Below, in pieces: positions 37,066-43,871 of a DNA stretch of 53,358 nt. This stretch comes from Deltaproteobacteria bacterium. Its GTDB lineage: Bacteria; Desulfobacterota; Desulfomonilia; UBA1062. The DNA is taken from positions 1 through 53,358 of the forward strand of contig WFSG01000042.1 of assembly GCA_015486075.1 (NCBI GenBank), given 5' to 3'. Both the position numbers and the translations under genes were made by a program. Under the pieces are notes generated by a model. That model made no database searches. It was not told the origin of the DNA and worked only from the letters and a program-made list of their open reading frames with translations. Position 1 is the first letter of the stretch. Every line of letters starts with the position of its first letter.

Positions 37066-38295
37066 ATGGAACAAATTAATGTGGAGAGTACCAGTATGCA
37101 GGCAGTTGAAAGGGACCTACCCTATGTTGACATGGCAAGAGAGAAGCCAGAGAAGGCATGTCTTAGACTGCTAAAAGAGGTGTTTGCAAGGGTATACGTG
37201 AGCATACCTCTGAGGATCTTGGATGGGGGTGTACTTGTGGCAATGGCAGAACCAGGGAGAAAAGACGTTATAAACGCACTACGTTTTCACATGGGCATGC
37301 CTGTTTACCCTGCTCAGGCGGAGAAATCATCTATACTCAGGGCGATAGACAAGTATTACGGGGATAACAACCAGAAAGGCAATGAAAACGAAAAACTCAT
37401 GGAAAAGCAGCTAGAGCCGACAAGCCATACCATATCAGTGATATCAAACAAGGGTGGGGTGGGTAAAACCCATGTATCTACAAATATCGCAAAGTTAATC
37501 GCTGATACAGGGAGAAGGGTTCTGCTCATTGACGCAGACCTTGGTAATGCTGATATATCAAATAAACTTGCATTCTTTCCAGAGAATACGCTCTACGATT
37601 TTTTCCAGGGCGATACAGAGCTAAAAGACGTGATAAAGAGAACCCCTTACGGTTTTGATCTTATAGCCGGCACGTCTGGTGAGTTCAAACTAGCAAACCT
37701 GAACTACGTGCAGCGTTCAAAGTTCATCAGAAACTTCAGGAAGATAAGTCAGAGGTATGACTTTACGGTATTTGACCTCAGTGCTGGTATATCATCAGTA
37801 GTACTCGACTTTGCCCTGGCTACAGACGAGATAATTGTAATCACAACCCCCCAGGACATAATTGCAGGATATGCCTGTATAAAGGCATCCTTCCAAAGAT
37901 TCAAGGCCATCGAGGAAAAACTCATGGACAAAGTCGAAGATTACAAGCCCCAGAAGGTATATACTCCCTGGGTAGTCATGAACCAGTTGACTGACCTGAA
38001 GCAGGGGGTGTTCCTCTACAACAGGATATGCCAGACAGCAGACGAGAAGATCAACAACCAGGAGGATATCTTTACCCTGAACCCGGCGTACCTTGGGGGA
38101 ATACTCTATGACAAGGAACTCTTCCGCAAGGCCGAATCCCTGCACAAGCCCTTGATAGCGGCCTATCCAAGGGCAAGGGTTTCCCAGTGTATGGCCTACC
38201 TTGCGAACAACATAGTGAAACCACCTGAGCAGAGAGACACAAAACAGGAACTCAAGGGTTTCAGACGTTTCTCTCTTATCTTTGGCCTGAGATAA
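37066..38295 (+). CDS. MinD/ParA-type ATPase fused to a GspE-type N-terminal domain
   Basis: 409 aa in two parts. Residues about 18-99 (DLPYVDMA, then VSIPLRILDGGVLVAMAEP) match the later part of the MshEN/GSPII_E_N domain found at the front of GspE/PilB ATPases. The first subdomain, with its RLG-type ligand motif, is missing. After a charged linker, residues 122-409 form a MinD-family ATPase with deviant Walker A KGGVGKTH and LLIDADLGNADI. It is not next to minC/minE or flagellar genes, so a role in positioning a secretion or export machine is inferred, not shown. Heptamer arrays flank this segment. Confidence 0.85.
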   Translation: MEQINVESTSMQAVERDLPYVDMAREKPEKACLRLLKEVFARVYVSIPLRILDGGVLVAMAEPGRKDVINALRFHMGMPVYPAQAEKSSILRAIDKYYGDNNQKGNENEKLMEKQLEPTSHTISVISNKGGVGKTHVSTNIAKLIADTGRRVLLIDADLGNADISNKLAFFPENTLYDFFQGDTELKDVIKRTPYGFDLIAGTSGEFKLANLNYVQRSKFIRNFRKISQRYDFTVFDLSAGISSVVLDFALATDEIIVITTPQDIIAGYACIKASFQRFKAIEEKLMDKVEDYKPQKVYTPWVVMNQLTDLKQGVFLYNRICQTADEKINNQEDIFTLNPAYLGGILYDKELFRKAESLHKPLIAAYPRARVSQCMAYLANNIVKPPEQRDTKQELKGFRRFSLIFGLR

Positions 38296-38627: not shown

Positions 38628-38658
38628 CCAAAGCATTGGCCGGCCAGAAGTTGCTGTG

Positions 38659-38703
38659 GAAAAAATTTTACCCTTTACCTATAAATCTATGAAAAAGTTT
38701 TCC
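38659..38703. promoter_or_regulatory. Paired A/T dyads, candidate enhancer sites
   Basis: GAAAAAATTTTAC (38659-38671) and GAAAAAGTTTTCC (38691-38703) match at 11 of 13 positions. They are 32 bases apart, close to three helical turns, and end about 97 bases upstream of a -24/-12 promoter. That is where activators of sigma-54 promoters usually bind. Inferred from pattern and position. Confidence 0.4.
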
Positions 38704-38799
38704 ATATAAGAATAATTCCTGTATTCCAATTTTCCTCTTTACTTACAAGGAAGCCCGCTGTATACTTATTTTCCTGATTTGTTATGTTCTTTTTTTGCA

Positions 38800-38815
38800 A
38801 GGCATAGTTATTGCA
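38800..38815 (+). promoter_or_regulatory. Sigma-54 (-24/-12) promoter of the PEP-CTERM gene
   Basis: AGGCATAGTTATTGCA matches the RpoN consensus TGGCACG-N4-TTGCA at GGCA and TTGCA, with GG and GC exactly 10 bases apart. It lies 40 bases before the GTG start, leaving space for a short leader with the AAGGAG ribosome site. Confidence 0.6.
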
Positions 38816-38854
38816 GCAAATTGATCAATCAGGAAAAAGCTTAAGGAGAATATT

Positions 38855-39679
38855 GTGAAAAAGGTTACATTCATCTTGGTTCTTATTACATCACTATTTT
38901 TCTGGGGCAACTTGTTTGCAACGCCCATTAACTTTAGTGACACCGCTAATTACTGGCCTGGCTGGGGCGGAGGTGTACGCACGTGGAAGCATTCAATCAA
39001 GGATAATACAGAAGAACACATAGGAACACCAGATATAAAAGGTGGCCAAGTAGACATAAATAATGGAGAAATCAACAGCGTCACAATAGACTATTACAAC
39101 TCTGCCTACTATGGAGACGTGACGCCAGGGGACCTCTTCATAGACCTTGGCTCAGATAAGTATTGGGATTACGTTATACAGAGCGCCTCTGGGACCATTC
39201 TGGGTTTTGGAACAAAAGAGTTTGCCCTTGGCACATACGACAAGAATCCAAATCTCAACTACGGTTATGACCAGAATTACCAGCTCTCTGGTGACTGTGA
39301 TGGCTATGATGGATCTGGTCCTGCTTTCACCGGGGTTTGGCAAAATCCTGATGGCAGGACATATGATATAAGGGATGACCATCCTGTATTATACCATAAC
39401 AGTGGTTCTTTAAATCCCAGAACCCTTGGTAGTGCCAGCGTGGGTAGTTTCGATTCCTCGGTAGGGTCACATTCATTCATGTTCTCAAATCTGGCAGGCC
39501 TTGACCTTAAGGGCTATGACAGCTTTACCATAGGTTGGGCAGTTGACTGTGCCAATGATGTTCTTTACGAGAAAGTTCCTGCGCCTGTACCTGAGCCCGG
39601 CACCATGATGCTCCTGGGCATAGGGCTTATGTTGATCGGTCCGCTTATGAGAAAGAAAAGGGGAAGTAAGGAGTCTTAG
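38855..39679 (+). CDS. PEP-CTERM exported protein
   Basis: 274 aa. Signal peptide at 1-22 (cut likely after LFA), then a beta-rich, Gly/Asp/Tyr-rich extracellular part, and at the C-terminus VPEPGTMMLLGIGLM followed by LIGPLMRKKRG. This is the tripartite PEP-CTERM sorting signal: Val-Pro-Glu-Pro, membrane helix, basic tail. It is processed by an exosortase, not in this window, and usually delivered to the envelope or biofilm matrix. GTG start with AAGGAG eight bases upstream. A strong terminator follows. The sigma-54-type promoter suits the known PrsK/PrsR-RpoN control of such genes. Confidence 0.88.
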   Translation: MKKVTFILVLITSLFFWGNLFATPINFSDTANYWPGWGGGVRTWKHSIKDNTEEHIGTPDIKGGQVDINNGEINSVTIDYYNSAYYGDVTPGDLFIDLGSDKYWDYVIQSASGTILGFGTKEFALGTYDKNPNLNYGYDQNYQLSGDCDGYDGSGPAFTGVWQNPDGRTYDIRDDHPVLYHNSGSLNPRTLGSASVGSFDSSVGSHSFMFSNLAGLDLKGYDSFTIGWAVDCANDVLYEKVPAPVPEPGTMMLLGIGLMLIGPLMRKKRGSKES

Positions 39680-39711: not shown

Positions 39712-39748
39712 AGCCCGGGTTTGCTTTGCATGTAAGCCTGGGCTTTTT
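39712..39748 (+). terminator. Rho-independent terminator of the PEP-CTERM gene
   Basis: AGCCCGGGTTT (39712-39722) pairs with AAGCCTGGGCT (39734-39744) with two G-U pairs, followed by a run of T. It lies 33 bases after the stop. Confidence 0.85.
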
Positions 39749-43482: not shown

Positions 43483-43512
43483 TTGACTTGGGGCGCATAA
43501 ACGTTTTATATA
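43483..43512 (+). promoter_or_regulatory. Sigma-70-type promoter candidate for the triheme cytochrome
   Basis: TTGACT (43483-43488) and TATATA (43507-43512), 18 bases apart, 36 bases before the ATG. The -10 region overlaps the left arm of an inverted repeat. Confidence 0.5.
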
Positions 43513-43532
43513 ATTTTATAAATAAAAACGTT
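43500..43532. repeat. 8-base inverted repeat across the cytochrome promoter/leader
   Basis: AACGTTTT (43500-43507) and AAAACGTT (43525-43532) with 17 bases between. It could be an operator over the promoter or a hairpin at the mRNA 5' end that stabilises it. Confidence 0.4.
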
Positions 43533-43547
43533 AGGGTAGGTGAGCCT

Positions 43548-43871
43548 ATGAAAAATCTAACCTTTGTACTGAGCATTCTTGCAGCTGCTATGTTTGTATT
43601 AGCTAGCACTAGCGTTATGGCTGTACCACCGGGTAAGACAGTTGTTTTCCAGGATGGTAAAATGGGTAAGGTTACATTTGACGGAAAGGTCCATGCCGAT
43701 CATGGCAAAAAGTGCTCGGACTGCCATCCAAAGCTGTTTCCAATGAAGAAAGGCGCAACAAAGATAACCTTTGCCCAGCACACCGCAGGAAAAGAAACGT
43801 GCTTTGCGTGTCACAACGGCAAGGTTGCATTCAAGGCCATGGGCAATTGCGCCAAGTGTCACAAGAAGTAA
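43548..43871 (+). CDS. Periplasmic triheme c-type cytochrome (c7/PpcA-like)
   Basis: 107-aa precursor; signal peptide cut likely after SVMA (residue 25). Three haem sites: CSDCH (56-60), CFACH (85-89), CAKCH (101-105), plus distal His candidates in HADHG and FAQH. This fits the class III three-haem c7 family, small periplasmic electron carriers such as PpcA. I chose ATG 43548, with AGGTGAG upstream; the longer frame adds an unrelated leader. The natural partner is the membrane CbcL-like cytochrome 2 kb downstream, but the genes are separated and a flavoprotein on the other strand intervenes. Confidence 0.9.
   Translation: MKNLTFVLSILAAAMFVLASTSVMAVPPGKTVVFQDGKMGKVTFDGKVHADHGKKCSDCHPKLFPMKKGATKITFAQHTAGKETCFACHNGKVAFKAMGNCAKCHKK

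Follow-up and report, generated by a model that had tools for sequence, protein, structure and literature searches.

The PEP-CTERM protein gene at 38855-39679 (+) of the window, by which we mean the whole 53,358 nt stretch of DNA analysed here, is very probably transcribed from a sigma-54 promoter, and the paired dyads upstream of that promoter are likely to serve as enhancer for some bEBP that is not PrsR. The fuller explanation, which we hold to be somewhat better than an even proposition, is that this enhancer, termed box 2 below, and a bEBP encoded in an XrtA-type polysaccharide locus on contig C10 together drive the gene. The genome to which the window belongs, as contig C42, comprises 2.30 Mb in 49 contigs (completeness 100, contamination 0.11).

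The gene has a GTG start and encodes a protein of 274 aa with a PF07589 match of 28.3 bits (cut-off 20.7), a signal-like N-terminal segment and a PVPEP...RKK tail; a same-genus homologue, found in genome G001 and also in locus L265, is 80 % identical, and its gene start lies 13-16 b from a contig end. Upstream of the start codon an RBS-like AAGGAG was read at 38843-38848 (+), preceded by the -24/-12 element AGGCATAGTTATTGCA at 38800-38815 (+). The original prediction had described this element as a 9-of-12 consensus match with a 10-base GG-GC spacing, and it is seen exactly so, with GG at 38801-38802 and GC at 38813-38814. A hairpin-like intrinsic terminator lies at 39712-39744 (+), weak evidence alone, with one found against a shuffle mean of 1.1, and 38855-39679 is predicted to be a single-gene sigma-54 transcription unit.

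Three PEP-CTERM genes were found in this genome, on C42 (the window), C36 and C22, and each is preceded, 50-55 b before its start codon, by a GG-N10-GC element that agrees with the consensus at 9 or 10 of 12 positions. When the 200 b upstream were scanned for at least 9/12 matches, the three genes scored 3/3, against 0/3 for antisense, reversed or shuffled sequences. Relatives were treated in the same way, with starts picked by a signal-like N-terminus and ribosome-binding site; among the matches listed there were 147 rows from other genomes, 144 of them with a start and 136 clear of contig ends, in addition to our 3. Among these matches, 72 of 116 PEP-CTERM genes of family relatives reach at least 9/12 (antisense 3/116, reversed 0, shuffled 3), as do 12 of 19 from other families at 9/12 (antisense 1/19, reversed 0, shuffled 0). 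Judged by these sequence scans, sigma-54 control is the well-supported rule for PEP-CTERM genes in this group. The genome has an rpoN gene, as the original prediction required, at C5:175207-175683, and the features of the enhancer-dependent sigma-54 class seen here are rpoN, bEBPs, GG-N10-GC and phased upstream sites. Sigma-54 control of PEP-CTERM genes is known in principle, and neither the promoter class nor the sorting system is new; the pepA PEP-CTERM gene of Aquincola tertiaricarbonis, for example, has a mapped start, a -24/-12 GG/GC element and rpoN-dependent expression, although that strain differs in having PrsK/PrsR, and the available text mentions its enhancer without dissecting it (PMC9850573).

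The two near-identical A/T dyads that had been noticed upstream are confirmed, 32-33 b apart and ending 92-96 b before the -24 element. Their 13-mer cores, GAAAAAATTTTAC (38659-38671) and GAAAAAGTTTTCC (38691-38703), lie 32 b apart, and the second ends 96 b before -24. In the register of a position weight matrix (PWM) from another family, described below, the distal dyad (box 2 site 1, TGTGGAAAAAATTTTACCCT, 38655-38674) scores 15.2 bits and ends 125 b before -24, and the proximal dyad (box 2 site 2, TATGAAAAAGTTTTCCATAT, 38688-38707), 33 b from the first, scores 10.5 bits and ends 92 b before it. Each is only half-good, which counts against the box 2 reading: site 1 has a left half, GTGGAA, identical to the motif and a weak right half, and site 2 has a good right half, TTCCAT, and a weak left half. 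The pair score (15.2 + 10.5 bits) was nevertheless reached by 0/500 and 0/200 dinucleotide shuffles, and 15.2 bits is the sole value of at least 15 among 275,944 positions of this genome (276 kb of stretches) scanned for box 2. The 13-mer GAAAAARTTTTMC, searched through the whole 2.3 Mb genome, has four exact occurrences, two of them at the window dyads; with up to two mismatches it shows no genome-wide enrichment (287 matches versus 420 for the backwards pattern), and so the 13-mer by itself says little. One match, at C30:6973, is on the same contig as the exosortase gene and has no sigma-54 promoter with it.

In the original prediction the dyads were taken for a PrsR-type enhancer. The enhancer half of this proposal agrees with their position, their phasing and their recurrence before other PEP-CTERM promoters, where related dyads are present but degenerate (their absence there had been named as grounds for refutation); the PrsR half does not hold up, neither the box nor a PrsR/PrsK over its cut-off having been found. 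Haft et al. (2006) described a motif 1 of 17 nt that ends in TTTACA and is separated from the promoter by 62.8 nt on average (about 63 nt), and the available text also states that the motif left the upstream regions of many PEP-CTERM genes unexplained (PMC1569441). Expectation maximization on the regions upstream of -24 from 82 relatives, with our genome excluded, recovered de novo the box kTGTCGRnnnnTTTTAC (log-likelihood 421.0), which agrees with motif 1 as given there in its end sequence and its spacer; the spacers in relatives cluster at 51-54, 63-65, 74-76 and 85-88 b. Where present in relatives the box scores 12-25 bits, whereas at 12 bits it is found in 0/3 of the PEP-CTERM genes of our genome, the best score being 6.6 bits (spacer 129) in the window and below 4 in the other two, and it is missing from the same-genus G001 gene as well. 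At 12 bits or more it occurs in 48 of 62 sigma-54 genes of PrsR-positive genomes and in 7 of 28 from PrsR-less genomes; all seven are in G005 and G012, and the other 19, our three included, have none. G012 has a partial PrsR-like match (model positions 1-305), and G005 has PrsR boxes yet no PrsR over the cut-off, which counts against the agreement between box and PrsR. The control is also imperfect, since 12 bits is reached in 13 of the 139 antisense upstream regions (400 b) as well.

The search for the proteins gave a matching result. PrsR (TIGR02915, cut-off 502.6) is over its cut-off in 17 of the 28 genomes searched, all 17 being among the 24 genomes of the window's family, and the true PrsRs of relatives score 503-582; the best match in our genome, for which completeness is 100, is 450.3. 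The best PrsK match (TIGR02916) is 119.8 against a cut-off of 300 and covers the kinase end alone, so that neither protein exceeds its curated cut-off here. The absence of rpoN or prsR had been named as grounds for discarding the original prediction, and rpoN is present while prsR has no match over the cut-off. Since the PrsR box, PrsR and PrsK are all lacking by these measures, control is probably not of the PrsR type, and the PrsR part of the earlier interpretation is not supported. The 450.3 match, on C41, was considered as PrsR and rejected on the strength of an NtrX model score of 506 bits (under that model's own cut-off of 600) and of its locus, which adjoins a histidine kinase and lpxC-like and ATP-synthase-like genes. 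That a divergent PrsR is still in control, the dyads being degenerate PrsR boxes, is improbable: besides C41, 12 further bEBPs of this genome score more than 300 bits with TIGR02915, and TTTTAC is found in the distal window dyad and at the C36 gene (TTGTGAAAAGTTTTACATAT), but no bEBP here reaches the range of the relatives' PrsRs, the box scores are far from those of relatives, and PrsR falls outside the clade of the C10 protein in a tree of 2 PrsRs and 11 of our 13 bEBPs (five long-branch bEBPs and G058_C6_70448 were left out of this tree, and three more were filtered). We note that a 768-aa TPR lipoprotein resembling PrsT (TIGR02917, 302.5 versus a cut-off of 312.2) is encoded beside the C36 PEP-CTERM gene and divergently from it, at L062:8488-10794 (+), a possible case of PrsT persisting in a genome that has no PrsK/PrsR over cut-off.

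Box 2 was defined in another family, f19, here the genus g38 (G058, G095, G099, G100 and G101), of which G058 and G095 were searched for PrsR and have none over the cut-off. The sigma-54 PEP-CTERM genes of this genus have two to three tandem dyads such as AGTGGAACTATTTTTCCACT, usually 20-23 b apart, and 23 loci from outside G058 were read besides those of G058. The PWM, a symmetric 20-mer, was trained on f19 alone, with 28 promoter-bearing upstreams reduced to 16 non-redundant ones (3 of the 16 show no box 2), and was tested on the window's family, f1. The motif is approximately AGTGGAA-N6-TTCCACT, with G and C conserved at fixed positions of the dyad, and the window dyads match it. Some f19 loci (L266, L283 and similar) also have degenerate tandem repeats resembling ACGCTATACGCTA between the sigma-54 promoter and the PEP-CTERM start codon, and L284 (G099) has a CACT run upstream of its PEP-CTERM gene.

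With a call made at p<=0.05 per gene from 200 shuffles, box 2 is found in all three PEP-CTERM genes of our genome. The C36 gene has dyads of 9.5 and 7.8 bits (p 0.006), and the C22 gene a single clear dyad of 10.4 bits (pair p 0.05), a point against the box 2 reading, with one dyad at the same offset, 71 b, in the same-genus orthologue G001:C14. Elsewhere in f1 box 2 is called in 15 of 17 sigma-54 genes that lack a PrsR box, against 7 of 55 that have one and 5 of 44 genes with no sigma-54 promoter (Fisher 1.6e-8 and 2.4e-8), whereas 30 column-permuted PWMs reached at most 2/3 of our genes and 11/17 of the box-less sigma-54 genes. Seven genes score for both the PrsR box and box 2, which counts against this reading, and both enhancers occur inside one genome in G007 and G010, our own genome showing box 2 alone. 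Box 2 thus tracks a missing PrsR box together with a present sigma-54 promoter, and it would follow that two enhancers divide the PEP-CTERM promoters between them. The 22 sites of at least 9 bits lie at 60, 69-71, 80-83, 89-92, 104 and 123-126 b from -24, a phasing with period 11 (R 0.73, n=22) whose p-value is optimistic because periods between 9.5 and 12 were tried; PrsR boxes are phased likewise. Such helical phasing fits the need of a bEBP that acts by looping.

The A/T-rich composition of the dyad sites raises the alternative that they are simply bent or A-tract DNA, or that the gene is driven by a sigma-70 promoter, TTTACT-17-TATACT, at 38738-38766, and seven sigma-70-like sites are seen in this region against 3.3 in shuffles. 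We regard this as very improbable: controls that keep the composition (dinucleotide shuffles, column-permuted PWMs) fail to give the enrichment, and neither the conserved G and C nor the tie between box 2, the sigma-54 promoter and the lack of a PrsR box is what it would lead one to expect.

The case for a particular activator of the box 2 enhancer comes from G058, in which 16 loci cover 18 bEBPs and just two loci have a sigma-54 promoter (11/12) with at least two box 2 dyads. In the first (L308, G058:C13:76151-77542) the bEBP gene itself has three dyads in front of it, of 18.1, 13.5 and 11.3 bits at 69, 91 and 116 b; this bEBP has an N-terminal part without a Pfam receiver match, and it looks autoregulated. 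In the second (L303:1109-3 (-), on G058:C7) the gene that follows the box 2/sigma-54 promoter encodes, as read by eye, PilZ-like, PAS-like and kinase-like parts and lies beside a receiver-less bEBP; through this gene the PEP-CTERM regulon may be coupled to c-di-GMP. The recognition helix ISYK[AS]L occurs in only these two G058 bEBPs, a coincidence that by our own arithmetic would arise 1 time in 120 under random placing among the 16 loci. Orthologous loci in G095, G100 and G101 agree, although, coming from a single genus, they are not independent, and 12 further bEBP loci of G095 have no box 2 array, one of them (L379) having a single dyad with a promoter, which counts against the link.

Our genome encodes 13 bEBPs. 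One of them, the candidate at C10:15571-17013 with a receiver-AAA+-HTH_8 arrangement (a Fis-type HTH), forms a single clade with its orthologues and the two G058 bEBPs at 100/100 support, in a tree from which the PrsR rows and six bEBPs were excluded, and it is the only member of that clade found in the genome. The HTH regions of the f19 clade members are 49-62 % identical to that of C10, which counts against reading C10 as the activator. Whether the bEBP acting on the window dyads is this candidate we put at about even, and the argument is one of clade and context, since it rests on the clade link and the order of genes at the locus. A competing reading, which seems rather unlikely to us, accepts box 2 and assigns it to another of the 12 remaining bEBPs, for example C35:74658-76058, C21:8309-9718 or the NtrX-like C41. 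C35 and C41 have reciprocal best matches in G001, G006 and G058, and C21 has them in G006 and G058, whereas C10 has none in G001; but C35 adjoins flagellar genes, C21 is beside Mrp/NifB-like genes, C41 is in the lpxC-like and ATP-synthase-like setting noted above, and none of the corresponding G058 loci has box 2 with a promoter. C35 was favoured at first for its reciprocal best matches, and was set aside because of its flagellar locus and the lack of box 2 at its G058 orthologue.

The candidate C10 bEBP gene has a GAF/PAS histidine kinase gene just upstream, and downstream a row encoding an export protein, a 401-aa protein, a chain-length protein, an ATPase and a tyrosine kinase. The 401-aa protein has no match and appears by eye to be outer-membrane-like, and the chain-length protein is over the TIGR03007 cut-off (280.8 versus 278.85). 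TIGR03019 is also exceeded (265.2 versus 260.35), so that the genome has XrtA-type EPS proteins of its own; TIGR03027 (export), TIGR03015 (ATPase) and TIGR03018 (tyrosine kinase) are all below cut-off. A single exosortase was found, as the original prediction had suggested one might be, at C30:4163-4930; it exceeds the family cut-off (TIGR02602, 153.8 versus 105.55) and does not reach that of the XrtA-specific model (163.8 versus 208). This exosortase, the PEP-CTERM proteins and the XrtA-type EPS proteins are the features of XrtA/PEP-CTERM sorting present here. The row of kinase, bEBP, export, outer-membrane, chain-length, ATPase and tyrosine kinase genes recurs in G006 and G007, and C10 orthologues of 67-75 % identity are found in 18 of the 24 family genomes, PrsR-positive ones among them. 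None was detected in the other six (G001, G003, G009, G014, G020 and G021), of which G001, G020 and G021 have box 2 genes; this counts against the C10 assignment, though genome incompleteness (82-93 %) may explain the missing orthologues. Box 2 with a sigma-54 promoter beside a C10-type bEBP was found in none of 18 C10-type loci scanned, box 2 was looked for before the EPS genes or operon of our own genome and none was seen, and the C10 regulator and the window gene are unlinked, all of which likewise counts against the explanation. Elsewhere in the genome, an intergenic sigma-54 site matching at 10/12 positions lies at G000:C32:112097 (L053, 9098 (-)), accompanied by a single box 2 dyad (12.0 bits, 111 b), and precedes the gene for a 622-aa protein adjoining the bEBP C32:108631-110001, possibly a further member of the regulon.

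For binding, the identity of the activator and its signal we infer the following scheme. The C10 bEBP, once phosphorylated, would bind both window dyads as dimers and assemble its AAA+ ring, the DNA would loop over the roughly 100 b between the dyads and the -24/-12 element, which the ring would open, and the sorted PEP-CTERM protein would thereby be made together with the polysaccharide machinery. Such a scheme resembles the PrsK/PrsR system, as far as its available description goes (PMC1569441), in the sigma-54 promoters of single PEP-CTERM genes, the repeated upstream element, the long intergenic region, the response-regulator bEBP and the XrtA/exopolysaccharide context. It differs in the enhancer, TGTCGR-N4-TTTTACA there and a GTGGAA-N6-TTCCAC dyad here, and in that PrsR/PrsK are below cut-off in our genome and PrsR is not of the bEBP clade of the candidate activator, which is encoded in a polysaccharide locus.

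Two other regulators bear comparison, likened here by description. EpsI/Nla24 of Myxococcus xanthus is an NtrC-like protein (receiver, AAA+, HTH) of the eps locus that is needed for EPS and binds c-di-GMP, and it is like C10 in its domains and polysaccharide locus, although the available text reports no role for it as a PEP-CTERM activator (PMC4877007). DVUA0057 of Desulfovibrio vulgaris is an exopolysaccharide-operon bEBP for which DAP-chip enriched its five predicted PEP-CTERM targets; the available text regards it as the PEP-CTERM regulator predicted by Haft et al., and in our reading DVUA0057 is PrsR (PMC3333781). Both it and C10 are bEBPs in polysaccharide loci, and the direct binding data are those of DVUA0057. 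No description of a second PEP-CTERM enhancer, or of the candidate activator, was found in the open-licence PMC text.

We would give roughly equal odds for and against the broader proposal that Desulfobacterota-like PEP-CTERM genes are split between the PrsR box and the box 2 of the ISYK[AS]L clade, the box 2 system coexisting with PrsR in most genomes and being the sole one where PrsR has been lost, as in the window's genus. If true, box 2 and its candidate activator would account for part of the PEP-CTERM upstreams that the PrsR motif leaves unexplained, the supply of a surface protein would be tied directly to a polysaccharide locus, and the promoters would represent a case of rewiring in which they outlast the loss of their activator.

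Two further genes of the window deserve mention. That at 37066-38295 (+) encodes a 409-aa protein with an MshEN domain (Pfam 56.8 bits, cut-off 23.1), which is a c-di-GMP-binding domain, and a MinD/ParA-type ATPase domain (AAA_31, 66.5 bits); it is possibly a c-di-GMP-responsive MinD/FlhG-like protein. The product of 43488-43871 (+), of 127 aa, has several CxxCH motifs and looks by eye like a small multihaem cytochrome.
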